From a virus, in IMG/VR virus record IMGVR_UViG_3300029787_000098, positions 4,316-43,101 of that record: a stretch of DNA of 38,786 nucleotides. The stretch is one strand, 5' to 3'. Each line of letters opens with the position of its first letter. The first letter of the stretch is position 1. Of this stretch, positions 6,821-32,444 are shown piece by piece. The notes under the pieces are model-generated. The model searched no databases. It had not been told where the DNA came from and saw only the letters and a list, made by a program, of their open reading frames with translations. A program made the translations under genes and the position numbers.

Positions 6821-8075
6821 CAGTTAAAAGTAAAAAGTATGACTCTTGGTTTCCGTTTGCATCCTGAACTTTAACTGGAATCTTATGAGTGAACGAAGAA
6901 GCAACCTCTCCAGATACAGATCTTATATCAGTTCCAATACCAGTAATTACCATTGAATTAGTACCATCTAAAAATGCTAATTCACCAATTGAAACTTCCT
7001 CTGCAGATGTTGTTAACGCAGTTCCAACTTTATTCCAAGGATTATTATCACTTGAGAACGCACGAGTATCTCCAATGTAAACACCAGGTGATCTTCGAAC
7101 TGGATTATTATTACTTATATTTGAAGCAAGGTTATTATAATTATTTGGGTCGTTTGTGACTACAGAACCTTCAAATGCTATGGGATCAGTGGTTGTTATG
7201 TCAGAATCACCTCTATATTTTTTACCCATAAAATATTCAGCAGTCTCTATATTTGCTTGAGTCGAATCCATCGTACCATTTATAGATCCACCATCCAAAT
7301 ATGAAAATTCTTCATCTTGTATATCAGGTTGAATATAATTAATTATCTGCTGTTGATGAACTGGATCCTTACGATCAAATTGAAAATTATCTGGAGTTAA
7401 GGCCGCTCCACCAGCAATCGTTATTGTATTAAATCCTACAGTTGATGGACTTGTAGACAATTTAAATTTTGTCAAACCATCAGAATTACTTACATAATAA
7501 TCAGTATTCGGTGAAAGAATTGTAGTTCCTGAACCCACTAATTTAACTTCCTGACTTACATTTATTACGTCATCTTTTGTAAAAGAAAATATATCGGATG
7601 CAGATAAAGAAAAACCTATCCCTGTAACAGATGTATATGTTTCTGTAAGGGCAGATCCAACTTTACTGAAACTAAAAGTTTTCAAATCATTTGAAGTTCC
7701 TACAACTGAAAACTCACCATTCACAATGTTTGCTCCTGCACCAGTAATTCCACTAATTTTGACCAAATCTCCAAATTTAATTAGATGTGAATTAATTAAT
7801 GATACTTGTATTGTTGTACTTCTATTTCCATCATTATCAATAACTCCATTTGCTGTGATGCTAGTTATTCCTATAACTTTATCATTCGCAGTTGAGAAAA
7901 ATCCATCAGAGTCAACAGCATAAAACGGAATGCTGGATAAGTTTCTTAAATTATTTTGTAAAAATGAAATATCTTTACTAGTTCCTGAACCTGCGAGGTT
8001 ATCAAACGCAGTCCGATCATCTTCCGTCTCTTTTAAATTTAAATCCCTTCTAAATCCTTGGTTCTGAATTGCCAT
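6813..8075 (-). CDS. Baseplate/tail appendage protein with RRDxNL N-terminus
   Basis: I choose the start MAIQNQGFRRDLNL at 8075 (420 residues) over an upstream ATG at 8108. The 8075 ATG overlaps the stop of the LRR gene by one base (TAATG) and has GGAGG at a suitable distance, as elsewhere in this block. The N-terminus (GFRRDLNLKE...AFDNLAG) parallels GIRRDQNLGD...GLENLLD in the 4299-6746 protein. Residues about 82-135 form a small beta module (NSHLIKFGDLVKISGI...NGEFSV...KTFSFSKVG), which recurs in the giant protein at 18204-25331. The C-terminal half has YRGDSDITTTDP and RRSPGVYIGD. The function is unassigned. The position at the distal end of the baseplate operon suggests a peripheral virion protein. 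Confidence 0.75.
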   Translation of the reverse strand: MAIQNQGFRRDLNLKETEDDRTAFDNLAGSGTSKDISFLQNNLRNLSSIPFYAVDSDGFFSTANDKVIGITSITANGVIDNDGNRSTTIQVSLINSHLIKFGDLVKISGITGAGANIVNGEFSVVGTSNDLKTFSFSKVGSALTETYTSVTGIGFSLSASDIFSFTKDDVINVSQEVKLVGSGTTILSPNTDYYVSNSDGLTKFKLSTSPSTVGFNTITIAGGAALTPDNFQFDRKDPVHQQQIINYIQPDIQDEEFSYLDGGSINGTMDSTQANIETAEYFMGKKYRGDSDITTTDPIAFEGSVVTNDPNNYNNLASNISNNNPVRRSPGVYIGDTRAFSSDNNPWNKVGTALTTSAEEVSIGELAFLDGTNSMVITGIGTDIRSVSGEVASSFTHKIPVKVQDANGNQESYFLLLTEN

Positions 8076-10747
8076 TAACTTAGACCTCCATTTACTGAGA
8101 TATTCCAACCATTTTGAACCAAGATAAGAGCCTTTTCTTTTACTTCATCAGATGGAGTTTCATTGACACCAACACTATTTTTATTACCTCTTAAATTAAC
8201 AGTCACTCCACCACGTTTTATCGCATTCCAATTATCATATAAATCTAACAATATATTATCTTGAGTGGTTTGATTCAAATTATTATTTGATAAATCAAAA
8301 TATCTAATCCTATATAGAGATCTAAATGAACCCACTTTATATGCTGATAGTTGATTATTATATAAAGTCAAGTACCTCAAGTTAGTGCAGGTGGTAAAGT
8401 CTGGAATCTCACCTTTTATTTGATTATTATGTGCATAATAATACCACAAATTAGGAAGATTATTTGGTTCTCCAATTCCTGTAAAACTATTATTTTGAAG
8501 AAATAGATAACGAAGATTAGATAAATTAGTAAAAGCAGGTATCGTACCAGTAAAATTATTTCTTGTGATATTTACATAATGAATATTTTGATTGTTTCCA
8601 AAATTAGGAAGTGAACCTGAAAAAGCATTTTGTTGTACCCAAATATGATGTAGTAACGGATTTGAACTAAAATCAGGTAAATCTCCATTTACTCTACCAT
8701 ATGAACGGAACCAAAAATAACCCAAATTTGGATTTTGTTTAAATGCATCAACATTTATTGGTTTTGCCAATAAATTAGGTGAATCAATGTAAATATTTTC
8801 TATACTTGGAGAATTGAAAAAAGTACCACTTGTAATTACATGAGTTTGTGATCCGTCTGCAATTCCTGGTGCACCACCTTTGATGCCCGTATATCTTAAA
8901 TCTAATGTTTTTAAATTTATATTTGAAAAATTATATGGAAAATTTATTGATCCCAAGCCAGTTGCGTAAAATGATAAACTTTCCAAAGAACTACAATTTT
9001 CAAATCTGTATGAAGTTCCACTTACAAGAGGATTTGAACCTCCACCATATGAATAAGTTTGATTATAAGTTTTTAATGATGGAGAATTTTGCATATTAGC
9101 AATTCCCAAACCAGTAGAACTATAATTGATTGTGACTAATTTATCTTTACTTGCTAAATCAAAATTACCAGAACTTTTCGCATCAGTTAAGTAATAATTA
9201 CCAGAAACGCTCAAGGTAATCAAGTTAGGTGCTTTTTTGAATGAATATGATCCATTTGAAAGTGATTCCGTAGAAACAGATAATGAACCATCTGAGGAAT
9301 TAGTTTTTGCTATCTGAACATTACCAGAAGTAACTTCATTTAAATCTACACTTCTAAAATCATTACTTGTAATATTATAAGATGTAACATCTTCAGGCAT
9401 ATCAGGACAAAAAGAGTCTCCACCCGAATTATTTGTTAACCCACTATCAGGTTTATCATCAGGATGAAAATATGCTCCACCACCTCTACCTAAATTTAAA
9501 GAAGTTAAATTTGGTAAGTTTACTGATATTAAATGTCTTTCAATTGAACCATAAAATGTTCCTTCCATATTCAATGTTCTCAAAGTATTACTAGGAGTTT
9601 TTATTTTATCCATAATGAGATTATTGAACTTTCTTTCAAATTCATTATCACTTAAATAGAAAGGATTTCTCATTAATGAAAGTGTATTTATTTCTGGTGC
9701 AACAAAAGATACATTAGGAAATAATTTAAGTTTATTATATGCGAAATCTAATCTAGTGCAATTTTCTAATCTTGTTGCTGGCAATTCTCTTATATTTGCT
9801 GATCTTATTTCAACTTGTGTAATGTATTTTGGATTATAATAAAATTTTATAAATCTCTCTCTTGAAACTGGTGATCTAAAGCGTATACTTGATTCTCCTG
9901 TTCCTCTGTTTGCAAAATTTGAATATCTACTTGCATTACCAGTTTCAACTATTTTCCAACTAGCTGGAATTGAACCACCCTGTGTATAATTTATATTAAC
10001 TTTGGCATTTAAATTTCTAAAAAATCCCTTGAAAGTTAAAGGTATACCTTTCATTGCATACAAGTATACAGTCTGTCCATTAAGGTTGCATTTAATTTTA
10101 GAAGTGGGAACCTCTGATTGAAATTCCTTTACTTCTGGAACTAAAGTTGTTTGTAATCTTGGTTGACCAAATGGCCCTACAAATCCAGATTGTGGTAAAG
10201 TGTTACTACTATCATTTCCTAATGCTTGAGTCGCAGTTGATTGCTGCCCAAATTGTAATTGACCACCTGATACAATACTGACTCTTGCACCATAAGATAT
10301 CCTTGATTTTTTTTGTGTATCTAAATTTTGATTATTTGCTCTTGGATCTGAAGAACTCCATGCACTTACTCTTGATGTTGATATGTCTGCCAACTTACCA
10401 GGATTAGTTCCATCCAAAAAACGATAGCGAATCGCACTACCACTTAAAGATCCGTTAATATCTAAGTTACCAAATAATGTTTGATCTGTTCCTGCACGAT
10501 CAGTCAGTAAACTATTAAAAATACTTGCTTCACCTGAAAATCTTGTTAGAGTTTTATAAATTGGGGTTCTTAAACGAGAAAAACTAAACCAATCATAACG
10601 ACTCATTCCTTCATTACCAGATCCTTTAATTATCTCCAAGTCTAGAGGATTAAGTCCAAGATTTATAAGTGCAGTATTTTTGTTTCTTACATCAGATAAT
10701 TCACTTTTAATATTCAGACCAAATATTTTAGGGTTCGTAAGTGCCAT
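8075..10747 (-). CDS. Tail protein with leucine-rich repeats (LRR)
   Basis: This 890-residue protein begins MALTNPKIFGLNIKSELSDV and continues with NPLDLEIIKGS and RYDWFSFSRLRTPIYKTL, an anchor type I know from marine T4-like virion proteins. From about residue 315 onwards it shows leucine-rich repeats, clearest at 687-845, where units such as FTGTIPAFTNLSNLRYLFLQN and IKGEIPDFTTCTNLRYLTLYN follow each other. The GxIP signature is that of the plant-receptor LRR class. The LRR part is presumably a solenoid exposed for ligand binding, and the N-terminal part the virion anchor (inference). Its start overlaps the upstream stop (TAATG) and AAGGAG lies within the last codons of the upstream gene, so translation is coupled. 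Confidence 0.8.
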   Translation of the reverse strand: MALTNPKIFGLNIKSELSDVRNKNTALINLGLNPLDLEIIKGSGNEGMSRYDWFSFSRLRTPIYKTLTRFSGEASIFNSLLTDRAGTDQTLFGNLDINGSLSGSAIRYRFLDGTNPGKLADISTSRVSAWSSSDPRANNQNLDTQKKSRISYGARVSIVSGGQLQFGQQSTATQALGNDSSNTLPQSGFVGPFGQPRLQTTLVPEVKEFQSEVPTSKIKCNLNGQTVYLYAMKGIPLTFKGFFRNLNAKVNINYTQGGSIPASWKIVETGNASRYSNFANRGTGESSIRFRSPVSRERFIKFYYNPKYITQVEIRSANIRELPATRLENCTRLDFAYNKLKLFPNVSFVAPEINTLSLMRNPFYLSDNEFERKFNNLIMDKIKTPSNTLRTLNMEGTFYGSIERHLISVNLPNLTSLNLGRGGGAYFHPDDKPDSGLTNNSGGDSFCPDMPEDVTSYNITSNDFRSVDLNEVTSGNVQIAKTNSSDGSLSVSTESLSNGSYSFKKAPNLITLSVSGNYYLTDAKSSGNFDLASKDKLVTINYSSTGLGIANMQNSPSLKTYNQTYSYGGGSNPLVSGTSYRFENCSSLESLSFYATGLGSINFPYNFSNINLKTLDLRYTGIKGGAPGIADGSQTHVITSGTFFNSPSIENIYIDSPNLLAKPINVDAFKQNPNLGYFWFRSYGRVNGDLPDFSSNPLLHHIWVQQNAFSGSLPNFGNNQNIHYVNITRNNFTGTIPAFTNLSNLRYLFLQNNSFTGIGEPNNLPNLWYYYAHNNQIKGEIPDFTTCTNLRYLTLYNNQLSAYKVGSFRSLYRIRYFDLSNNNLNQTTQDNILLDLYDNWNAIKRGGVTVNLRGNKNSVGVNETPSDEVKEKALILVQNGWNISVNGGLS

Positions 10748-18203: not shown

Positions 18204-21200
18204 TTAAGTAACTCCGACTCTTCCTTTAGCGATAGTGAATATTCTCCTTATAGATATATAGTCGCCATCAACAACTGTCTCTCCGTGAGATGTGGCATTT
18301 ATTGATGAGAAATTAAATATGACTCGATCAGAACCAAGTCTTTCTTGAACTGTAAGTTCTTTGCTTTGTATATTTGGCCCTGTTTGGTGTCCTGTTAGTT
18401 TTACAACGTCTCCAGTTGTAATTCCAGAAATTTGACCTGCGTTGTCCAATCTAATTATGTACTGAGTACACGCAACACCAACAGTTCCAATTCCTTGATA
18501 GTTTCCACTATTCGCCCAGTAACCAGTTTGAATACCAATAAACGTTGTGAATCCAGTTGGTGCTGTTTGGAATTCTGTTCCAATAATTTCATAACCAAGT
18601 GCGGTGCTTGAACCAACGTAAGATGCTAATGTTGCAGTGCTTGCTTGTGTTGATTTAAGTTGAACATAACCATTATCTCTTCCAGATACTCCTGCACTAT
18701 CTTGTGTAAGAACATCAAAGGTAAAGAACTTGCTTCCAAGAGATGCAGTGCGAGTTGTGCTGTAAAGTCCGACCATTGTTCCGATACCTGCAACAATAGA
18801 AACCTTACTGCTACTGATATCTTTTCCTTCACCATCTTCAATGTAAAGTAGTTCTGGGCCAAAGAAGTCAGTTGTGGTATCAATAGTTATATTGATCGAA
18901 TCAAAGTCTGTATCGTAGATATCAGGTGAAGCAATAAACTCATCAGCAGGGCCAAGAATTACATTGCTTTGTGTAGTAATCTTACCAGTTGCATATGCAT
19001 CAATACCACTACCACAATTTCGAATTATGTTTCCACCAGTAGCAACAACACTTGTTACAGATACGTCAAGAGCACCAGGATAATTTTCAAATAATGTATC
19101 ATTAATTCTGACAGTTTCTGAATTTTGAACATCTATTGGTCTAAACTCATTATACCTGTCAGTCTGTCCACCATCAACAATCGTGCTATTCTCTACAGCT
19201 ATACGTCTAGAATTTCTAGCATATAATCCACCTCCACCAGAATTTCGAATCTCCATGTCTTTAAAGAGTATGGATGTTCCACCCCCAAAGGTAAGTAAAT
19301 TGTTTTCACTTTCTAATGTGAATAAAAGATTGTTTGAACTGTTTCCATCAAAAGTTACATCTGCAACTGTCACATCAGTTGGATTGGTTGTTCCAACACC
19401 AACTAAATTACCATCAAAAGGCAATGCAGTTCCACCACTTACACCTTGATCAGTAGCATCAGTACCATAATATTGATACTTAACAATACTATTCTTTCCA
19501 TTTCCTCTCAAAGTAAATTGAGTAGGAATAGTAAGTTTGTTAGTAAGGTAAGTTCCACTTGGAAGATCTAAGTAGTTTCCTCCAGCTGCACTGATACTTG
19601 TTATTGCATCAGATAATGCTTTAGTATTATCATGAACAACTTTGACTGTAGAAGTTGTTCCAAATCCTACTGTTCCATTCAAATTATAATTTCCACTTAC
19701 TGTAATGAAGTTGGAACCAACAGCAGTTACTTGGTCAATATCCCATCCTCTACCACCAACAGAACGTGGAACGACTGGGAAATGAATTTGATTTGTTAAT
19801 GTAGTATCACTATCTGATCCTAAGAACTCATTGACAGTTCCTTTTGCACTCCAAGCAGTTTGCTCATAAACTCCATAGTCTTTCCAATTGATATCAACAG
19901 TGCTGTTCTCTAACTCTTTCTGACCAAGAGTAGCAATCAATCTTGCATTATTGATATTTGCATTTCCTGCAGTTCCAACTCCAGTAAAGTTTTGACGGTA
20001 GACTAAAATACCATGATTTGTGTCAGTTCTTTTTAAGGTGAGAGAATTATGATTTGTATCATTGAAACTTTGTATATTTGTGTTAGCAACTCCAACTCGA
20101 TTACCAGATCCTGCATAAGAACCACTTAAATCAATCTGTGATGATATACCAACTTTACCATTTCTCATATGATATTGTGCTTGCCAATAATAATAAGTCA
20201 CTCCACTGCTACTTCCTACTTTTGTTATCTTCACTGTATTATCTAAAATAGGTGCAGGAACCACTGCACTATCAGATGATTCAGTTACACCAAACATTTT
20301 AACTCTTTCACCAACAAAGAATTTTGAAGTTGATATTCCAGAAATTCGTAATTTACTACTTACAATTGATCCAGTTCCTTGATATATTGTTCCATCATTA
20401 CTAACTCCTAAACTTCTTAATTCATATGCAGATAATTCATGTGGATCAATCATTTCATAACCACTACCATCATCTTTAACTTTGATGATGCGGTTTCTTG
20501 CGTATGTTGTTTCTTCAGTTGCATCAGGTAAGTCTGTTAACTTGAAGTTTTCATAAACATTTGCACGGATTGTTCCGTTTACATCTAAATCAATATCAGT
20601 ATTTGGATTGACAGTTTTAATACCAACGTTTTGAGTATCCTTATTAACTACTAATGATGGATTTGTATCATCACCAACTTGGAAGAATGCATTGTTTAAT
20701 GCGTTTCCTTTGATTAAAAGTTTAATAGCTTCAATTCCACCAGATGAATCTGTGGATGTTATTTTATTTGTAAAGTTGACAGGGCCATTAAACTCTGATG
20801 GTAAGTTTTGATTTGCACCACCACCAACACGAAGTGTATTGCGAATGAATACATCATCAAAGGTTATAGAATCAGAATCTGCAACTTCACCTAATATTAA
20901 TTCTCTTGGTTGTACTCTATCTCCACTGAAGAAATCACCACGATCATTCATACCAGAGAAGAATACAACACCACCTTTTTCTTCTTTTGATATTGAAAGT
21001 AATTCTTCTTCCTCTTCGAGTGTTCTTTCAATTAACTGTGGAAGTGAAGTTGAGTAGTTACCTGGCCCATATCCGATGTACTCGAATGTATGACCAGAAG
21101 CACGGATGGTTGAGAATCTGTGTAGTTCTGATGGAATTGGATTTATCTTTCTAACCACTGATGTATTATCGTGTGCTACAGATTGAGTTCCCAATACACC

Positions 21201-24200
21201 TCGAAGAACTGTTAAATCAGAGGCATTTTGTTTCTGTATCACTCTCATAACTTCATTATCTACTTGTAAGAAGTCACCAGTGCTAACACCAACAGTGCTT
21301 ACTATCTTTAAAGTAGTTTGAGTTGGGGCAGTGCCAATACCTGCGTCCATTGTAGTTGTAAATCCAACTAATATTGGAGACAAACTTCCAGATATTTTCT
21401 CTGCAGCAAGAGAACTATCCTGACCATAAGAATTTAGAGAATACTTAAGTAAATATCCTGTATGTGCACTTGATGTGGATATACCAGATCTAGAACCAGT
21501 ATCCATTGTAAATGTAGTAAGTCCTACTTTTTCTTTAACAACGAAATCATAACCATTATAATTTTGTTGTGATGTTCCACTAAATCCTTCTAACTTAATT
21601 TTATTTCCAACTGATAATCCATGACTGATATCTGTTGTAACTGTAACAACTCCACCTAGAGTTGTATTTGCAACACCTACAATATTTGATATCTCGACTG
21701 CTTTATCTAAAACAGTAAATATTCCATTCGTTGTTCCAACAGGGCCAGTGTATATTCCTGCAGTGACTGGAATTGTCTGTCCTTGAGGAACATTATAGTA
21801 ACTAACAGAGTTAGTACTAGGAACTTTAAGTATTTTAAAGAGACCATTATATCCACTGTTGTTTCTGTTTCCAATTGATCCGACACCAACAACCTGTATT
21901 GCTTTACCGACTGCGTTATCAATTGCATCTACTCGAACAACACCACCAGTTCCACCAGATACACTCATTGTCATACCAATACCATAACCACTTCCACCGT
22001 GACTAAGTTCTACACTGGTAATTGTTCCACCTGTTCCTGTTACAACCTTGGCAGTTGCACCACCTCCTGTGATACCAACTCCAGTAAGAGAAACGTCATA
22101 TAATGTTGAGTTTGCACCATAACCAGTTCCAAAAGCAGTTAATTGAAGAGTTGTGATCGCATTTAGATTATGTTCTACGTTTGATGAAATGGTTGTGAAA
22201 CCTGCGTTTACACTTGAACCACCAGTGACAGCAAAACCAACACGATTATCTCTGAGATAATTAATAACTGTCTCTTTTGTTATACTGTTGACTGGATCAT
22301 TTATATTAACCTGTCCAAGAAGATCATTTGAAGCTGCCGAAACTGCTTGATCTGGATCGTTATTAAGATTATCTCTATCAACTGTAGGATATAGATTTGT
22401 AAAATTCTGTTTGTATCTAAGATTGGAAAACTCAGAAGAAGTTGGCGATATATTTCCAATTAAACAAGTCAGATAATAAACACCATCCTGTTGACCAGTA
22501 ATATAATCTTGAATTGTTTCTACATCTTGTATTGTATATGTTGTATCATATTCACTTCTCTTAAATGTTGGTAATTTTGTTCGATCACCACCAGCACCAC
22601 GTAAAGTTGCTAGATTATTTGTAAATGTTCCACCAAGTTTTGTATTTGAATATGAAAAACTTTTTGCTGATGGTGTTGTAGTTACGGTAAATGTACCATT
22701 ATATCCAGTGTTTCCAAGGCCTGTAGTATTCGTTGAACTTAATACATTTTGAACAACAACCTGATCGTTAACACTTAGTTTATGTGGAAATTCTGAAGTT
22801 ATAGTAACAGTACTACCAGTGCTTGAGATACCTGAAATAACTTTTGGGTTACGATTTGAAATTACAGTTGAATTTGAGTTTACTATTTCATCTTGAACAG
22901 TCTTTGATTCCTGTAATGTGTAATTTTTCTCTGGTTTCTTCGCAATAGTCTCTGTAAATTCTTTTGGAATTACATAACGTAAACGATAGATACGATCATC
23001 TAAGGCACGAGTTTCAGCAACTCTCTGAACATAAGTTGCAGAGTTATTTGCTATAATTTCTGTAGAGAATCCAACAAATCCATTATAAATTTTATTTGTT
23101 GTTGTAGAGAATGATCCTAGAACATACCAGTTATTTTTGGCAGTATCAAACTGAATTGGATGTCCAACATCACCAGGAACTTTATCTGTGACTCTACTGA
23201 TTACAGTGAGGACTCCACCCAACTTGTTATCAATAGTAATTGCAGTTCCACGTAAAGCATCATTAAGAGTATTTGCAAGTTTAATTTTATTTGTTGCACT
23301 TCCCAAAATTACAAAATACTTTTTACTAATTTTGATTCCATCTGGAGTTCTACCATCATCTGCAAGAACAACAACTGATTCTCCAGTCAAGAAATTATGA
23401 TTTGCAGTTAGAGTTATCTCTGCACTAGCACCTGTGGTAATTACGTTTCCAGTTGTGTTTCTAGAAACTGTGAATCTTTTCTCAGAGGATGGGCCATCAC
23501 CAGATGCAACTGGCATTAAGATTGGAGATGTAAATGTTGTGGGTGCTCCACCTACATTAACATTTAAATATAGAACATCATCTTTCTTTGCACCGATTTT
23601 AAAACCATTTGCAACGTTAGTTGGGGGATTGGTTACGTCTTTCTCACCTTGTATATAAAGTCTTGCTGTTTGACCAGTTCCAACATTTGCAAGAGTCATT
23701 GCTGGATCTAAAGTTCTCCAGATGACGTTTGTTGATTCTTTCTGTAAATCTTTTGGTGGAACAATGTGAGTTACATATCCAGTATCATCACGATCAAATG
23801 GATCTTTTCTAAATCCTTTTGATACTAATGCTTTTGCACCAAAGTTTGAGTTAGAGTTGGTGATTGATTGCTCACCGCCTGATTCAGATAGGAAATGATT
23901 TGCATATCCAATCGCAAAAACAGAAACTGCCTGAATAAATGAGTCATTTGAACATTTAATATGGAAGTTTTCATATCTCTTTCTATAGACTGCGTTTTGG
24001 TTAGTATATAATGGTGTCTTGAATCTATCTCCTGATTCACTTTTTGCATTTACTGAATCAATATAGTTTCCAGTTGCTGGTTTGTATATTACAAATGCCT
24101 TATCATCTTTCTGTAGACCAATACCAGTAAACTGAGCAACAACCATAGATTTAAATCCAGTTGCTTTTGATCCATCAGCATGTAGACCACACATACCAAA

Positions 24201-25331
24201 GACAGATCTGAGTGAGCAGTTGAAGATATATGGTGAAGCACCAGTAACACTGTCAGCTTCTATCTCTACTTTCATTGATGCTGTTGTAGTGATTACATCC
24301 TGTGCTGGATCACCATCCATTGTGTAAGTAAATTGTCTTTCACTTGTAATTCCACTAACACTATAAGTTCCATCATAAAATGTATTTCCAATACCAGTGA
24401 TTAAAATCTGATCATCTATGGTTAAACCGTGCTCGTCTTTTGTAACTACAGTCGCATTAATTCCAGTTGAAGTTAATTTTTCAATTGTTAAATTATTAGG
24501 TGATAAATCACCAACGATCTTAGATTCTGGAGTATTTGGTTCGAAGTCTTGTCTTGCAGGAAAATCTGGAATGTTTCTATTTCCAGTATCGGCACCATAA
24601 GCATTCATCAACTTGAAATAATACATCTGCAAGTCACTTAATGATGTGAGTTCCTCCTCATTCTGACCATCAGCATACTCAAAACAAGTCAACTTGTGAT
24701 GTGATATTCTTGGATTTCTTTTTTCAGTAAAGTTTTTACTATAATATACTGACTGATTCGCATCAAACATACTGAATTGCCAGAAGTAGCAACCACCAGT
24801 GACACGGAACAGTGCAGATCTTGGAATTACACTATCTAAAACGTCTGGATTTGGTACATATAAAGGTCTTATCTTTGTCTTTCTTAAGTCTAAACCTACA
24901 ATTGATGTTCCTTTTGGAACAATTACTCCACCGTTAACAGAGTTAAATCTACGTAAAACATTATTTGAATTATTTAAATCAAATATTGATGAGTTATTTA
25001 AAAGTAAACTTTCACTTGTAACATTTCCTGAAATATCTAATAATTGTGCAGTTGCACCGTTCTGTTTAATGAATAATCCTGGTCTGTTGTCTATTGTATG
25101 TTCACCTGGATACAATAATATTGTTGTTCTATCGAATCTATCGTTATTAAATCCTGATTGATATGAAAATCTAGCTGCCTCAATTAGTGCTCTTTGTATT
25201 GTAACAAAAGGTCTTGTTAAAGAATTTCCTCTATTGTCAAAACTATCTGTAGCATCTAGATCAGATGGATTTACATAAAGGATATTACCATTGGTATTTA
25301 CTAGAAAATTTTCTAACCTTGAAAGGGGCAT
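18204..25331 (-). CDS. Giant virion protein (2375 residues) with beta-helix and repeated small beta modules
   Basis: The N-terminus (MPLSRLENFLVN...ILYVNPSDLDA...TRPFVTIQRALIEA...TILLYPGEHTIDN) resembles the beginning of a pectate-lyase-type beta-helix, residues about 15-150. Small modules with the pattern H-x-[LF]-x(3,4)-D/E-x-V/I, followed by YNGT and FTY-like strands, recur near 283, 637, 837 and 1222. A GSGYG-containing repeat lies near 1060-1120. SGHTFEYIGYGPGNYS, EEEEELLSISKEEKGG and SGMNDRGDF near 1415-1475 form a conserved marine-myovirus signature. Residues about 1900-2125 are a right-handed parallel beta-helix of the glycan-lyase type (LDLPSGTYLTNKLTI, GNGKNSIVKY, ADVTFDGNSSN, ARNSRRIAVENSTIVDGG). 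I do not see a definable catalytic set. It is probably a long appendage or wedge protein. A late promoter lies 35 nt upstream. Confidence 0.8.
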   Translation of the reverse strand: MPLSRLENFLVNTNGNILYVNPSDLDATDSFDNRGNSLTRPFVTIQRALIEAARFSYQSGFNNDRFDRTTILLYPGEHTIDNRPGLFIKQNGATAQLLDISGNVTSESLLLNNSSIFDLNNSNNVLRRFNSVNGGVIVPKGTSIVGLDLRKTKIRPLYVPNPDVLDSVIPRSALFRVTGGCYFWQFSMFDANQSVYYSKNFTEKRNPRISHHKLTCFEYADGQNEEELTSLSDLQMYYFKLMNAYGADTGNRNIPDFPARQDFEPNTPESKIVGDLSPNNLTIEKLTSTGINATVVTKDEHGLTIDDQILITGIGNTFYDGTYSVSGITSERQFTYTMDGDPAQDVITTTASMKVEIEADSVTGASPYIFNCSLRSVFGMCGLHADGSKATGFKSMVVAQFTGIGLQKDDKAFVIYKPATGNYIDSVNAKSESGDRFKTPLYTNQNAVYRKRYENFHIKCSNDSFIQAVSVFAIGYANHFLSESGGEQSITNSNSNFGAKALVSKGFRKDPFDRDDTGYVTHIVPPKDLQKESTNVIWRTLDPAMTLANVGTGQTARLYIQGEKDVTNPPTNVANGFKIGAKKDDVLYLNVNVGGAPTTFTSPILMPVASGDGPSSEKRFTVSRNTTGNVITTGASAEITLTANHNFLTGESVVVLADDGRTPDGIKISKKYFVILGSATNKIKLANTLNDALRGTAITIDNKLGGVLTVISRVTDKVPGDVGHPIQFDTAKNNWYVLGSFSTTTNKIYNGFVGFSTEIIANNSATYVQRVAETRALDDRIYRLRYVIPKEFTETIAKKPEKNYTLQESKTVQDEIVNSNSTVISNRNPKVISGISSTGSTVTITSEFPHKLSVNDQVVVQNVLSSTNTTGLGNTGYNGTFTVTTTPSAKSFSYSNTKLGGTFTNNLATLRGAGGDRTKLPTFKRSEYDTTYTIQDVETIQDYITGQQDGVYYLTCLIGNISPTSSEFSNLRYKQNFTNLYPTVDRDNLNNDPDQAVSAASNDLLGQVNINDPVNSITKETVINYLRDNRVGFAVTGGSSVNAGFTTISSNVEHNLNAITTLQLTAFGTGYGANSTLYDVSLTGVGITGGGATAKVVTGTGGTITSVELSHGGSGYGIGMTMSVSGGTGGVVRVDAIDNAVGKAIQVVGVGSIGNRNNSGYNGLFKILKVPSTNSVSYYNVPQGQTIPVTAGIYTGPVGTTNGIFTVLDKAVEISNIVGVANTTLGGVVTVTTDISHGLSVGNKIKLEGFSGTSQQNYNGYDFVVKEKVGLTTFTMDTGSRSGISTSSAHTGYLLKYSLNSYGQDSSLAAEKISGSLSPILVGFTTTMDAGIGTAPTQTTLKIVSTVGVSTGDFLQVDNEVMRVIQKQNASDLTVLRGVLGTQSVAHDNTSVVRKINPIPSELHRFSTIRASGHTFEYIGYGPGNYSTSLPQLIERTLEEEEELLSISKEEKGGVVFFSGMNDRGDFFSGDRVQPRELILGEVADSDSITFDDVFIRNTLRVGGGANQNLPSEFNGPVNFTNKITSTDSSGGIEAIKLLIKGNALNNAFFQVGDDTNPSLVVNKDTQNVGIKTVNPNTDIDLDVNGTIRANVYENFKLTDLPDATEETTYARNRIIKVKDDGSGYEMIDPHELSAYELRSLGVSNDGTIYQGTGSIVSSKLRISGISTSKFFVGERVKMFGVTESSDSAVVPAPILDNTVKITKVGSSSGVTYYYWQAQYHMRNGKVGISSQIDLSGSYAGSGNRVGVANTNIQSFNDTNHNSLTLKRTDTNHGILVYRQNFTGVGTAGNANINNARLIATLGQKELENSTVDINWKDYGVYEQTAWSAKGTVNEFLGSDSDTTLTNQIHFPVVPRSVGGRGWDIDQVTAVGSNFITVSGNYNLNGTVGFGTTSTVKVVHDNTKALSDAITSISAAGGNYLDLPSGTYLTNKLTIPTQFTLRGNGKNSIVKYQYYGTDATDQGVSGGTALPFDGNLVGVGTTNPTDVTVADVTFDGNSSNNLLFTLESENNLLTFGGGTSILFKDMEIRNSGGGGLYARNSRRIAVENSTIVDGGQTDRYNEFRPIDVQNSETVRINDTLFENYPGALDVSVTSVVATGGNIIRNCGSGIDAYATGKITTQSNVILGPADEFIASPDIYDTDFDSINITIDTTTDFFGPELLYIEDGEGKDISSSKVSIVAGIGTMVGLYSTTRTASLGSKFFTFDVLTQDSAGVSGRDNGYVQLKSTQASTATLASYVGSSTALGYEIIGTEFQTAPTGFTTFIGIQTGYWANSGNYQGIGTVGVACTQYIIRLDNAGQISGITTGDVVKLTGHQTGPNIQSKELTVQERLGSDRVIFNFSSINATSHGETVVDGDYISIRRIFTIAKGRVGVT

Positions 25332-27419: not shown

Positions 27420-28130
27420 CTAATTATTTGGACTATCTGCTATTTCTTTTACGATTTCCCACTCTGTTTTCAAATCTTCATGAAATTCATATAAAGTTGG
27501 ATCAGTTCCACAACTAGTTTCAATATCTTGTTTCTCACTATGTAGTGTCATAGTCCCTGTACAAACAATTCTTTTATTATCTGTTACATCTTCCGTGTAA
27601 TCACCACCAACTTCATGAATCATATCTTCACCAGCATCTAATTTTATATCTTTTCCTGCTATTAAATTTATATCTTCACCTGCTTGCAATTGAATATTCT
27701 TTCTTGCTTTAATATTAACTGTACCTCTCACAGACTCAATATGAATCACACCGTCTTTTGCATAGATTACAATACCTGCTTCACCATCTTTATCAAATCC
27801 ACCTTTTCCAGTTTTTATTCCATCAGAAATCAATTCCAAAGATGCGTTACCCACTACCTTTGCATTACCAGTATTAGTAAACAAAATTCCTTGACCAGAT
27901 TCAGTGTCTAATTGAAATTCGGCAAGATCATGTCTTTTGAGATCATTTCCACCAGTTATTTCAAAAGTAGGATATCCCCTACGGTAATAATCTTTCAATC
28001 TTTCAATCTGTGTTCCAACTTCTGCCTCAACTAATTTTTTAATTTCATCTTGAGTTAAACCCTCTGCATATCTAGAGAGTGGTGGTTTTTTTATTAGTTT
28101 TTGAAACTCTTCTGATTTATGTTGAGCCAT
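27420..28130 (-). CDS. Baseplate central spike protein, gp5 C-terminal beta-helix type
   Basis: This 236-residue protein has an N-terminal helical region (about 1-55, LTQDEIKKLVEAEVGTQIERL) and then a regular beta-helix from about 75 to 205. The clearest repeats are GTVNIKARKNIQLQAGEDI, NLIAGKDIKLDAGEDM and IHEVGGDYTEDV. The repeat pattern (xIxLxAGxDI) is that of T4 gp5C and VgrG spikes. The preceding gene encodes the OB-fold hub, so the gp5 functions appear divided between two genes. TAATG overlap and the Shine-Dalgarno GGAGGAGG, embedded in the upstream Gly codons, make it strongly coupled to the hub. Role: membrane-puncturing spike (known for the family). Confidence 0.8.
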   Translation of the reverse strand: MAQHKSEEFQKLIKKPPLSRYAEGLTQDEIKKLVEAEVGTQIERLKDYYRRGYPTFEITGGNDLKRHDLAEFQLDTESGQGILFTNTGNAKVVGNASLELISDGIKTGKGGFDKDGEAGIVIYAKDGVIHIESVRGTVNIKARKNIQLQAGEDINLIAGKDIKLDAGEDMIHEVGGDYTEDVTDNKRIVCTGTMTLHSEKQDIETSCGTDPTLYEFHEDLKTEWEIVKEIADSPNN

Positions 28131-30724
28131 TAGTAACCTCCTCCATATCCACCACCAGAAGAACCAGTATCAGTTCCAGTTGATGTGGATGTATCTGTTG
28201 TGCTAGTCGTATCCATAGTTGGAGTTGTAGGATTATTCACAATTGTTGGGGTTGTATTCACATTTAGAGTGGGAGTTTCTGTCACCGTTTGAGTGGGAGT
28301 TTCTGTAGGGGTCTCATAAGAGGATGATGATACCACAGGATTACTTAGACTCTCCTCTATTGTATCATAAATTATTGAATCTGACACACCGTGTGTTGCT
28401 CCTGTCATCTTTAAACCACTTGACATTACGTGGTAAGGCCCTGAATATTCAACACCATTAACAAAACCAACAGGATCTCGATTGTCACCAATACAATCAA
28501 CCACATTATCAATTCCAATGAGTGGTGTTGTCTTCCTCTTATCTGCATTGACATCCTTTTTGAATTGAGGTGTGAATGACATAATTGGAACGACTTTCGC
28601 ACCAACTCCTGTTGCTGTACTGAATTTTGTGATTGGGAAACGATTATATTCAATAGTAGAATCAGAGGGAACTGTTACACCTAAAACTTCACCATCTGGA
28701 GAGGTAATGATTGGAAACTCATAATCTCCTATTACGACTGTATCATCTGGACTATAATTAAATCCTGGTGAATCCAAGAATACATCTTCAACTGTTCCAA
28801 CAACATTAGTTCCAATTCCAACTGACTCATCATCTGTTGTATTCACACAATAACCGTATCCAGTTTTCATCAACACTACTTTTTGAATAACACCGTCCTT
28901 CACTAATGGTCGAGCAAAAGCACCCTTTCCATTTCCAGTGTTATCAACTACAACTAAACCTGTTGTCTCATCATATCCACTACCACCATTGATAACTTCA
29001 ATTGAAAATATACGATTATCATTTCCAACAATTGGTAGTAGTTCTGCACCTGTTCCTGTTCCAGATACTTTAACAACTGGTGGTAAACATTTCGGATAGA
29101 TAAATCCTGGTGGTGTTGGAGTAATGTCGTCCTGAGTCGTTGGGTTTATAACTCTATTATTACAAGCATCAAACGCAAGATTCTGTGCTCCGAAGAGTGA
29201 GGTCTGGGATAAAGCACTCTCAATTGATCCTAGTCCCAATAATCCTAATGTATCATCAGCATCACTTATTGCTTGAGTATTATCAATTGTATCTTGTAAG
29301 GGAACTCCATTTACACTTACATCACTTACATCTTCTCCTTTTAATACTCTATCCTTTGCATCAGTTAATCCTCTTGATATATTATCAAACATATTAATTT
29401 TAGAAACTTGATCACCCCAATCATCAGGTGCTGCTGGTATAATACCACCTGCAAATGCAGAACTCCAAGTTTTTGATGGTGTACATGGTGGAGCACCACA
29501 TTTATTAAGAAAACCTAGTAATCTTTTTGCCATTGCAGCTGGGCCTCTCAAGAGACCTGTAATAGATGATAGACCTCCAACTAACCAGTTAAGTCCACTC
29601 ATAATACCACTCAAACCTTTCTCAAGAGTATCAAAAACTTTTGCGAAAATTCCTGATACAAACTGATCAACAGCACAAAGTGCACCGTTCACAATTTTCC
29701 CAAGAAGATTGTTAAACATATTTTTTATGACAGCACCAATTCCACCAAGAACATTTTTAAATACACAAGCAATCAATCCTAAAATACCTGTTGATGCTTT
29801 TTGTGCACCCTTACTTGTATTTTGATTCTTTCCAGCTATTGAAGTTTTAATATCTGCGAGTAACTTAGAGAACTTTTTATTTAATTTTTTAAGTATTTTT
29901 TTTCGGATATTGTTTACTGTTCCTTTAAGCAATCCCGCCATCTGTTCTTTAACCATATCGAGTTGATAATCCATGTTAACAATTTCATTTGTTATTGGAT
30001 CTATCCAAGTTCCAAGATTATTATTTAACTTTTGAGTTCCACTAATAAAATCTTGAAGCAAACCTTGTGCTTGACTTACAACATTGCCTCCACACTTATC
30101 AATGGAACTGATTTTTATCGTTGCACTATCTTCTAAAAATACAGAAGCAAGATTTTGTTCTCCCTTATACACATAAATTGAAGTATCAAATGTTGGAGTA
30201 TCAAACTTAGAATAGTCTTCAGTTGTAAATGAAGCAAAGTTTTCAAATATGTCTTTATTATATTGATGTGCTTTATATTTACTTGTATCAAAACTGTGAG
30301 AAAATAAATTTTCAGTACTTAAATCTGGATCACTATTCCTTTTCCTTTTATTTTCTACTTGTAACTGTGCCTTTGGTAATACTGAGAATATCATTGGCAC
30401 TTGACCATCAGGGCCATCAGCAAAAAATCCTAAAACACTCTCTCCACCAACAAGACATAAAGTTTCTCCAATACCGCCTGTTCCATCTCCAACATTTGCA
30501 GATGGTAGAAATTGAGCCCAACGACAATCTTCATCAGGCAGTTCGGACTTTTCAAAAGTATCATATCCACAAACTCTTATCTTTGCTCGATGTGATTGTT
30601 TACCATCAAAATTTAAGGCATCAGCAGTTCCCTTCCAGTGTTCTTGCGGAACAACTTTCGCAAAGAACCATTGGAATCCATCTTTACCAGCAAAGTTAAT
30701 TGTTTGTAGGGTATCTAAACTCAT
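28130..30724 (-). CDS. gp5-like baseplate hub protein with OB-fold, no lysozyme domain seen
   Basis: In this 864-residue protein, residues 1-125 fit the gp5/VgrG OB-fold: FQWFFAKVVPQEHWKG, RAKIRVCGYDTF, DCRWAQFLPSANVGDGTGG and VLGFFADGPDG. A Gly-rich amphipathic/hydrophobic region spans about 310-425. A GSGY-type repeat region (IEVINGGSGYDETTG, VLMKTGYGYC, VFLDSPGFNY) spans about 560-710. Residues about 751-795 carry GPYHVMSSGLKMTGATH...IIYDTIEESL, followed by a Thr/Pro/Ser-rich tail ending GGGYGGGY. This last cassette is shared with the tube protein at 36095-37324. I see no T4-lysozyme catalytic motif. Start overlaps the CP12-like stop (TAATG), without a Shine-Dalgarno, indicating translational coupling. 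Confidence 0.8.
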   Translation of the reverse strand: MSLDTLQTINFAGKDGFQWFFAKVVPQEHWKGTADALNFDGKQSHRAKIRVCGYDTFEKSELPDEDCRWAQFLPSANVGDGTGGIGETLCLVGGESVLGFFADGPDGQVPMIFSVLPKAQLQVENKRKRNSDPDLSTENLFSHSFDTSKYKAHQYNKDIFENFASFTTEDYSKFDTPTFDTSIYVYKGEQNLASVFLEDSATIKISSIDKCGGNVVSQAQGLLQDFISGTQKLNNNLGTWIDPITNEIVNMDYQLDMVKEQMAGLLKGTVNNIRKKILKKLNKKFSKLLADIKTSIAGKNQNTSKGAQKASTGILGLIACVFKNVLGGIGAVIKNMFNNLLGKIVNGALCAVDQFVSGIFAKVFDTLEKGLSGIMSGLNWLVGGLSSITGLLRGPAAMAKRLLGFLNKCGAPPCTPSKTWSSAFAGGIIPAAPDDWGDQVSKINMFDNISRGLTDAKDRVLKGEDVSDVSVNGVPLQDTIDNTQAISDADDTLGLLGLGSIESALSQTSLFGAQNLAFDACNNRVINPTTQDDITPTPPGFIYPKCLPPVVKVSGTGTGAELLPIVGNDNRIFSIEVINGGSGYDETTGLVVVDNTGNGKGAFARPLVKDGVIQKVVLMKTGYGYCVNTTDDESVGIGTNVVGTVEDVFLDSPGFNYSPDDTVVIGDYEFPIITSPDGEVLGVTVPSDSTIEYNRFPITKFSTATGVGAKVVPIMSFTPQFKKDVNADKRKTTPLIGIDNVVDCIGDNRDPVGFVNGVEYSGPYHVMSSGLKMTGATHGVSDSIIYDTIEESLSNPVVSSSSYETPTETPTQTVTETPTLNVNTTPTIVNNPTTPTMDTTSTTDTSTSTGTDTGSSGGGYGGGY

Positions 30725-30951
30725 TAGTCGTCATATACTAGACACTCTGGTTCATCAGGGTGCAAATCACAGAATACTTCTAAAACATTAGGATCGTGAT
30801 GATCTCCTGCTACTATCTCTTCGTGATGATGTTCCTCATACTCTATTAGATCATGCAACTCTTCTTTTGCATGTCTCTTCATTGGTTCAGAGGTGCTTGG
30901 ATCAGCAAGGATCTCTTTGTCCTTTGCAATATGGTCTTCTATGCTTTTCAT
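30724..30951 (-). CDS. Small protein with CP12-like C-terminus
   Basis: In this 75-residue protein, residues 1-45 are helical and charged (IEDHIAKDKEILADPSTS, KRHAKEELHDLIEYEEHHHEE). The C-terminus, LEVFCDLHPDEPECLVYDD, matches the C-terminal Cys-loop of CP12 (pattern C-x-x-NP-x-x-x-EC-x-x-YDD), including both cysteines and the final YDD. CP12 binds and inactivates GAPDH and PRK of the Calvin cycle, and the C-terminal loop is the GAPDH-binding part. The N-terminal Cys pair of CP12 and the AWD-VEE core are not evident. Its location between two hub genes, with an overlap to gp5-like, suggests either a virion/assembly role or an auxiliary gene riding on the hub operon. Shine-Dalgarno AAGGAGG is strong, and a late promoter lies upstream. 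Confidence 0.75.
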   Translation of the reverse strand: MKSIEDHIAKDKEILADPSTSEPMKRHAKEELHDLIEYEEHHHEEIVAGDHHDPNVLEVFCDLHPDEPECLVYDD

Positions 30952-30980
30952 TTTTTTCCTCCTTGTACTATGTACATTAG

Positions 30981-30988
30981 TATTTATG
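30981..30988 (-). promoter_or_regulatory. T4-type late promoter (CATAAATA) before the CP12-like gene
   Basis: CATAAATA on the minus strand includes the TAA stop of the gp27-like gene and lies 29 nt before the ATG at 30951. It would express the CP12-like, gp5-like hub and spike genes as a unit. Confidence 0.6.
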
Positions 30989-32444
30989 TTGCTATTTTTG
31001 GTTCCGATAGTCCATAAGAATCTCGAACTAACTTAAGAAAAGTTACATTCTTATTTGCCTCAATATGATGCCTTAGTGCTCTTATCAAATACTTACCACT
31101 CAAGTTTTGATCTTGCTCCTTTGGTTGACCATCATTTAAACGAGGAAAACTACACCTTATTATATCACCAACTTTCATATTTACATTCATTGGTATCGAA
31201 ATATTTAATGATTGTGTGAATAATAAATTATATCTTGCTAATGATTTTGCAATGTCAGTTCTCTCTGCGTTTTTTCCTCCAGTAGGTTCAAGTCCATCTT
31301 CACCTTGTCCAGTCACACCATGATCTGATATTCTAAACATATATCTAGATGTGCTACCATCAGTCTCTGGAACATTTGGAATTTTATCTTGGCCACCTAA
31401 TTTATTGTCTTTAATTTCATCAGCAAGATTGTAAGTGTAGAAACTCATCTCATGTGTCAGTACATTAAAATATTGAGTTTTGTTTACATACATTCCTGTA
31501 ATTAATGCTTTTCGGACATCTGTATTTTTTTCTACAATGTAATTTAATATCTGAAAATTAGCACTAAGTTTATTACTATCAATCGCACCCAAACCACGCC
31601 ATTCATATGGTTGATCCTCTGTTCCATGTATGTCAAAGTTTACAGTTTTTCCGTCAGCTTTCCCTATGCCATCCTGTGTTGATGAAACTAAACTATCAAT
31701 ACTTCTAAAATTAAATCCTGCCTGATTCTCATAAAACATAAAACCAGCAGTTCCTTTTGCTTTTCCATCAGTAGTTGCATCTTCACCGTCCTCTCCACTT
31801 GAAGAAGTAATATTTGATATTGATTTTGGGCCTAACCATTGTAATACATAAAATGGTTTTCTTGTATTACCCATAAAGGAATAAGTATTCGCAGTTGGTT
31901 CTGTGAATATCTCTTTTGATGTGTCCAATAATTTTCCATCAATTAATAATTCATCTACAATATCACTGATTGGTAGTGGTTTTTTTGCATCTCTCCCATA
32001 TCTTTTTTTACATCTAGTAGTTTCATTTCTAAGATATTCTACAGAGACAAGGTGTAAAGTAAATTTTGATGCTTGTCTTTGACTATCCATTGCACTCACT
32101 TTATAAACATACAATTCATTTAAACCAGGAATTATATCTCCATTCGCATCTAATTCACCAAATTGAAATCTACCAGATCCAGTTTGTATATCCATTGCTA
32201 CCATCTCTCCACCAGTAATCATCAACTCACTCACGATATTAACAGTTGATATCACTTCAATCTTCATTGAAACTGAAGGTGTCAGTATGTCTTCAAAGTA
32301 TTCGATTGATCGAACAGCATTTGATAGTTCTACTTTTCTACCAGATGCTTCATATGCTAACAGACTATCTGAATTTGTATTCTTTTTTGGTGGGGATTGT
32401 AGTTGGAAATACTGATACCCAAGTCCTAAAACTGTTTGTGCCAT
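30984..32444 (-). CDS. gp27-like baseplate central hub protein
   Basis: This 486-residue protein has features of the gp27/gpD hub family. An N-terminal beta domain (VELSNAVRSIEYFEDILTPS, MKIEVIST, ELMITGGEMVAMDI) is followed by YVYKVSAMDSQRQASKFTLH. A central segment has SFMGNTRKPFYVLQWLGPKS. The C-terminal barrel has LNISIPMNVNMKVGDIIRCS, then LSGKYLIRALRHHIEA and VTFLKLVRDSYG. The GKYLI...H.I...FLKLVRDS ending is typical of hub proteins that sit under the tube and hold the gp5 spike. Its neighbours (gp26 and gp51-like upstream, gp5-like downstream) support this. The start forms TAATG with the preceding gene. No sign of truncation. Confidence 0.75.
   Translation of the reverse strand: MAQTVLGLGYQYFQLQSPPKKNTNSDSLLAYEASGRKVELSNAVRSIEYFEDILTPSVSMKIEVISTVNIVSELMITGGEMVAMDIQTGSGRFQFGELDANGDIIPGLNELYVYKVSAMDSQRQASKFTLHLVSVEYLRNETTRCKKRYGRDAKKPLPISDIVDELLIDGKLLDTSKEIFTEPTANTYSFMGNTRKPFYVLQWLGPKSISNITSSSGEDGEDATTDGKAKGTAGFMFYENQAGFNFRSIDSLVSSTQDGIGKADGKTVNFDIHGTEDQPYEWRGLGAIDSNKLSANFQILNYIVEKNTDVRKALITGMYVNKTQYFNVLTHEMSFYTYNLADEIKDNKLGGQDKIPNVPETDGSTSRYMFRISDHGVTGQGEDGLEPTGGKNAERTDIAKSLARYNLLFTQSLNISIPMNVNMKVGDIIRCSFPRLNDGQPKEQDQNLSGKYLIRALRHHIEANKNVTFLKLVRDSYGLSEPKIAT

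Follow-up and report, generated by a model that had tools for sequence, protein, structure and literature searches.

When CP12 is oxidised, its C-terminal loop enters the active site of GAPDH and, together with PRK, locks the Calvin cycle off, so that NADPH is left for the pentose phosphate pathway and for phage nucleotide synthesis. Many marine cyanophages encode a CP12 with which to turn off carbon fixation in the host. Among cyanophages, S-RSM4, in which cp12 is accompanied by gnd, zwf and talC, halts host CO2 fixation sooner than S-PM2, which is without these genes (PMC10452541). CP12 without the N-terminal Cys pair of the classical (N/C) subclass is a recognised class; the review that describes it names cyanophages among the exceptions to the classical layout and marine picoplankton as the group without the classical form, and reports that the presence of the core motif AWD_VEE varies between cyanobacterial CP12 classes, with cyanophages listed as exceptions (PMC3906501). 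The CP12 of Synechococcus elongatus PCC 7942, which work on that strain describes as a dark-light switch of the cycle, is also without the N-terminal pair (PMC11257934).

Positions of cp12 "near gp5" in phage genomes were reported by Sullivan and colleagues in 2010 (PMC3037559). The order gp27-like, cp12, gp5 occurs in the isolates S-SSM7 and S-SCSM2R, where the middle gene is annotated as CP12, in S-PRM1, where it is called hypothetical, and in Sf-FS3, where it is called a carbon metabolic regulator. Elsewhere, cpeT and sometimes tRNAs or other genes separate cp12 from gp5 (Syn9, P-SSM4, S-SM1 and S-CAM8), and in P-HM1 and P-HM2 the gene adjoins talC, away from the gp5 hub genes.

The DNA analysed here, called the window below, is a stretch of 38,786 nucleotides from a viral contig of 43.6 kb (IMG/VR record IMGVR_UViG_3300029787_000098). 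A short minus-strand open reading frame within it, which translates to MKSIEDHIAKDKEILADPSTSEPMKRHAKEELHDLIEYEEHHHEEIVAGDHHDPNVLEVFCDLHPDEPECLVYDD, is very probably a cyanophage cp12 auxiliary metabolic gene at the common gp27-like/gp5 junction, encoding a putative GAPDH-binding inhibitor of the Calvin cycle (Table 1). The gene is ordinary, as known phages already have a CP12 annotated at this position between tail genes. The CP12 of S-SSM7 (YP_004324068.1, T4-like gene cluster 337) shares with it the 228-bp length, the family and the neighbours, a tail protein upstream and gp5 downstream, but the two proteins are 63% identical and S-SSM7 has a small gap before gp5 rather than a one-base overlap. 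The closest named protein, and the best match among phage records, is the CP12 of P-TIM68, with 83% identity across all 75 residues, although its gene adjoins baseplate wedge genes and not the gp27-like/gp5 junction. In a megablast search for a close named genome, the sole match was a short piece of the gp26/gp51 region. A search of the contig, itself a fragment, found no gene for transaldolase (talC), which is frequently located close to cp12.

Table 1. Features of the cp12 locus, in window coordinates
Feature	Position	Strand	Basis
gp5-like baseplate hub / tail lysozyme, 864 aa, downstream neighbour	28130..30724	-	phrog_1922, 248.5 bits
cp12 gene, 75 aa, C-terminal-Cys-only CP12 type	30724..30951	-	PF02672, phrog_627, 361 phage records
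Codons of the 19-residue C-terminal tail LEVFCDLHPDEPECLVYDD, with Cys61 and Cys70, plus stop codon	30724..30783	-	conservation, GAPDH-complex alignment
Ribosome-binding site AGGAGG	30958..30963	-	direct reading
Palindrome TGTAC-ATA-GTACA between motif and ribosome site	30964..30976	-	conserved in closest relatives
ATAAATA promoter-like motif, overlapping the gp27-like stop codon	30981..30987	-	motif counts
gp27-like tail hub protein, 486 aa, upstream neighbour	30984..32444	-	phrog_350, 302 bits

The assignment to the family is carried by profile searches. The protein matches Pfam CP12 (PF02672) at 44.3 bits, twice the curated cut-off of 22.7, with residues 3-74 aligned to positions 4-70 of the 70 in the profile, and a six-frame search of the contig returned the CP12 family again. 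It also matches phrog_627 at 122 bits, and relatives were found in at least 361 phage records (E 1e-5), all bearing the names of cyanophages except one "Marine virus", with CP12 or carbon metabolic regulator frequent among their annotations. Against solved structures, a phmmer search with the single sequence gave nothing significant (best E 0.099) and a family profile was required; built from 32 relatives, it matches, over positions 2-75, CP12 chains from GAPDH complexes of known structure (6gfo, E 3.8e-6) and further structures (6kez, 3qv1, 2lj9 and 3b1j). The tail by itself aligns to the CP12 peptides of the GAPDH complexes 3zdf, 3b1j and 6gfo. The monomer as modelled by AlphaFold (mean pLDDT 78.8) has helices at 4-16, 22-47 and 56-63, and Foldseek searches with the model ranked the CP12 of GAPDH complexes at the top, yet insignificantly (E 1.6). 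Insignificant structural matches are to be expected of a conditionally disordered protein, and the model is therefore left out of the evidence. At the site of the AWD_VEE core motif, which is not present, the window protein reads EELHDLIEYEEHH. Because the Pfam match and the profile match both span the whole protein, the gene encodes a full-length CP12 homologue, related throughout and not at the tail alone. An earlier note on this DNA had recognised CP12 from the tail; the identification was right, and the profile match makes it stronger than was claimed.

That note had also described the tail, its two cysteines and the missing N-terminal pair exactly, as the minus-strand reading shows, and had considered the protein a possible half-CP12. 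The comparison with hosts removes the grounds for this. In an alignment of 94 phage sequences (59 distinct) with 31 CP12 genes taken from a sample of picocyanobacterial host-family genomes, Cys61, Pro65, Glu69, Cys70 and Tyr73 are invariant, so that the cysteine pair on which the CP12 resemblance was partly based is conserved in all homologues compared. Two of the outcomes that the note would have counted as refutation, a missing profile match and unconserved cysteines, are thus contradicted. The window protein has this C-terminal pair and the acidic Tyr-Asp-Asp end of CP12. Cys61 and Cys70 are the sole cysteines in 31/31 host proteins, the N-terminal pair being absent from these as it is from the window protein. 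Its absence excludes, on the evidence of the alignment, the classical subclass and not the CP12 family; since host-family and cyanophage CP12s share this form, it is the norm rather than the sign of half a protein, and a special truncation is rejected. The CP12s of Prochlorococcus and marine Synechococcus, of this C-terminal-Cys type, align with the window protein over the full length and have the same two cysteines, the YDD end and no N-terminal pair, but lack a phage insertion around residues 45-49 and are at most 59% identical to it. In a tree of 90 sequences and 77 columns, the hosts form one group split from the phages with support 100, and the window gene lies among other uncultivated marine phages, where 77 columns leave the finer branching unsettled.

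The host set was assembled by way of the family to which a Prochlorococcus single-cell genome belongs. A Prochlorococcus single-cell genome holds a phage-type cp12 on a 189-kb contig (QCLS01000003.1) and a host cp12 on another contig; this suggests an infected cell. Another cellular assembly, a MAG binned as "Euryarchaeota", contains a contig (PAZU01000055.1) with gp27-like, cp12 and gp5-like genes in cyanophage order and two further CP12 matches in the same bin. The contig is probably phage contamination.

The place between two hub genes is as the earlier note had described it, and its overlap with the gp5-like gene amounts to one base, 30724, shared by the stop TAA and the ATG (TAATG). This one-base overlap recurs in 42/64 scored relatives. 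Where 700 nt or more of sequence is available to either side of cp12 (70 loci), the order gp27-like, cp12, gp5-like holds in 51; three loci have the gp27-like gene only and 16 neither; the viral loci were picked by closeness to the query, so these counts are no census. Other features of the region concern its tail genes. Just downstream of the gp5-like gene, 27420-28130 (minus strand) encodes a separate 236-aa protein with a DUF2345 match just below cutoff and matches to phage hub lysozyme and baseplate profiles; it may be the spike portion of gp5, carried as a gene of its own. The gp5-like match is split over two consecutive overlapping frames in contigs L025, L026 (5222-7615 and 7594-8871), L030, L031, L037, L041-L044, L046-L049, L062 and L085, a recurrent pattern that may reflect a split gene, a frameshift or tandem copies. 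A minus-strand gene at 8075-10747 encodes an 890-aa protein that has leucine-rich repeats (LRR_4, LRR_8) close to the C-terminus, in a region that holds very large probable tail proteins, one of 2375 aa (18204-25331).

The wedged position and the recurrent overlap with gp5 are what recommend the other proposal of the earlier note, a factor of the virion or its assembly that evolved a CP12-like loop; such a protein would partner the gp5-like and gp27-like hub proteins, and its likeness to CP12 would be confined to the tail. The homology, by contrast, extends over the full length, and in P-TIM68, P-HM1 and P-HM2 the gene lies at a distance from the gp5 hub genes. More telling is the manner in which the gene is inherited. 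In contigs L006, L007 and L009-L011, cp12 is 94-97% identical to that of the window at the DNA level, whereas identity between the adjacent hub proteins is just 21-47% (21-56% when L012 is included). Against these six contigs, the share of four-fold degenerate sites that differ is 0-6% in cp12 and 38-69% in the hub genes, where differences have reached saturation, and dS is 0.23-0.34 for cp12 as against about 1 or more for hub genes on the same contigs. DNA from just upstream of ATAAATA through cp12 aligns at 85-89% to L009, L010 and L011; in these three contigs the flanking hub genes can hardly be aligned to those of the window. The converse is seen between L012 and L034, which are 98.5% identical on both sides and fall to 80-85% inside cp12. 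An assembly chimera is possible for any single contig, but the pattern is seen in several independent ones. Neither the dS values nor the L012/L034 pair gives any sign of co-evolution of cp12 with the hub genes, and the gene is, as judged from these alignments, exchanged independently of them. The ATAAATA motif, the TGTACATAGTACA palindrome, the ribosome site and cp12 act together as one cassette, about 280-320 bp long, that recombines (30724-31034 in the window; also L006, L007, L009, L010, L011, L012 and L034). Such recombination between hub backgrounds speaks against a structural role, and convergence of a virion factor on the CP12 tail is rejected as highly improbable, given the whole-protein homology and the exchange independent of neighbours. 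The site beside the hub genes most likely reflects a shared place of insertion or a location in an operon, with no virion role implied; a virion proteome exists for S-SM1. Still further from credible is a decaying or chance CP12-like reading frame, which has small size in its favour and nothing more. Relative to L006-L011, its six closest relatives, the window gene has 7-11 codon changes that are synonymous and 0-1 that are not, with dN near 0, a pattern that indicates strong purifying selection. Together with the CP12 profile match and the cysteines invariant across 94 phage sequences, this conservation refutes that reading.

Another issue is when the gene is expressed. The earlier note had given it its own late promoter and a strong ribosome site. 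The ribosome site is present, and the palindrome beside it recurs with the same letters upstream of cp12 in L006, L007, L008, L009, L010, L011 and L034. ATAAATA is rarer than chance across the window (10 found, 19 expected) and enriched within 70 nt upstream of genes, on their strand, where it occurs at 4/20 (P = 1.4e-5 when compared with random 70-mers and 0.015 when these upstream sequences are shuffled). Such enrichment is consistent with a cyanophage promoter, without proof of lateness, and at the level of the motif a promoter belonging to cp12 is plausible but weak. As for "late", ACATAAATAC also precedes cp12 in P-HM1 and P-HM2, and because the auxiliary metabolic genes of P-HM2 are reported to be exclusively middle-expressed (PMC5082946), the motif does not fix timing. 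The stoichiometric use with gp5 that the earlier note had suggested is conjectural.

These observations bear on a reading that is compatible with a GAPDH inhibitor and concerns timing only, namely that a cp12 at the hub junction is made with the late tail genes, so that the Calvin cycle would be shut during assembly and not in mid infection. In its favour, cp12 follows the gp27-like gene at -4 to +7 nt in 45/60 relatives, none of them with an ATAAATA of its own, while the other 15/60, window-type loci included, leave 25 nt or more between the two genes and all have the motif; ATAAATA also precedes other window genes in their own orientation, among them that for the 2375-aa protein. The occurrence of ACATAAATAC before the cp12 of P-HM2, a phage with auxiliary genes reportedly of the middle cluster, counts against it. 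No transcript data were found for a hub-junction cp12, and we regard the shift in timing as tentative, somewhat more doubtful than not.

The window protein is thus most likely a GAPDH-binding inhibitor of the Calvin cycle. The sequence comparisons show its family membership, conservation, purifying selection, gene order and independent exchange; the mechanism of CP12 and the shut-off of the Calvin cycle by phages are taken from the literature, and the binding of GAPDH by this protein and the time of its production are inferred. The protein would most likely be produced during infection and oxidised at Cys61-Cys70, and its C-terminal helix and tail would dock into the photosynthetic GAPDH of the host, perhaps helped by an N-terminal helical hairpin in contact with PRK. 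The predicted outcome is a blocked Calvin cycle, with NADPH and carbon kept for the pentose phosphate pathway and nucleotide synthesis. Counting against this explanation are the identity to host CP12, which is at most 59%, the insignificant Foldseek rank of CP12, and the presence of cp12 among structural genes in 51/70 fully flanked loci, unexpected if the protein is needed before virion assembly. No paper that tests the binding of phage CP12 to GAPDH was found in the literature searched.

Phage CP12 is a textbook case of how a virus rewires ocean carbon fixation, to which the window instance adds little alone. What is mildly new is the cassette-wise exchange of cp12 between hub-gene backgrounds, together with the question of timing for the hub-located copies. 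A broader picture, which we consider unlikely on present evidence, is that a large group of uncultivated marine cyanophages keeps cp12 in a late tail-hub operon. The shut-off of the Calvin cycle would then be tied to virion assembly, in contrast to the middle phase of P-HM2, and the gene would be swapped between unrelated hub genes as a cassette with its promoter and ribosome site.
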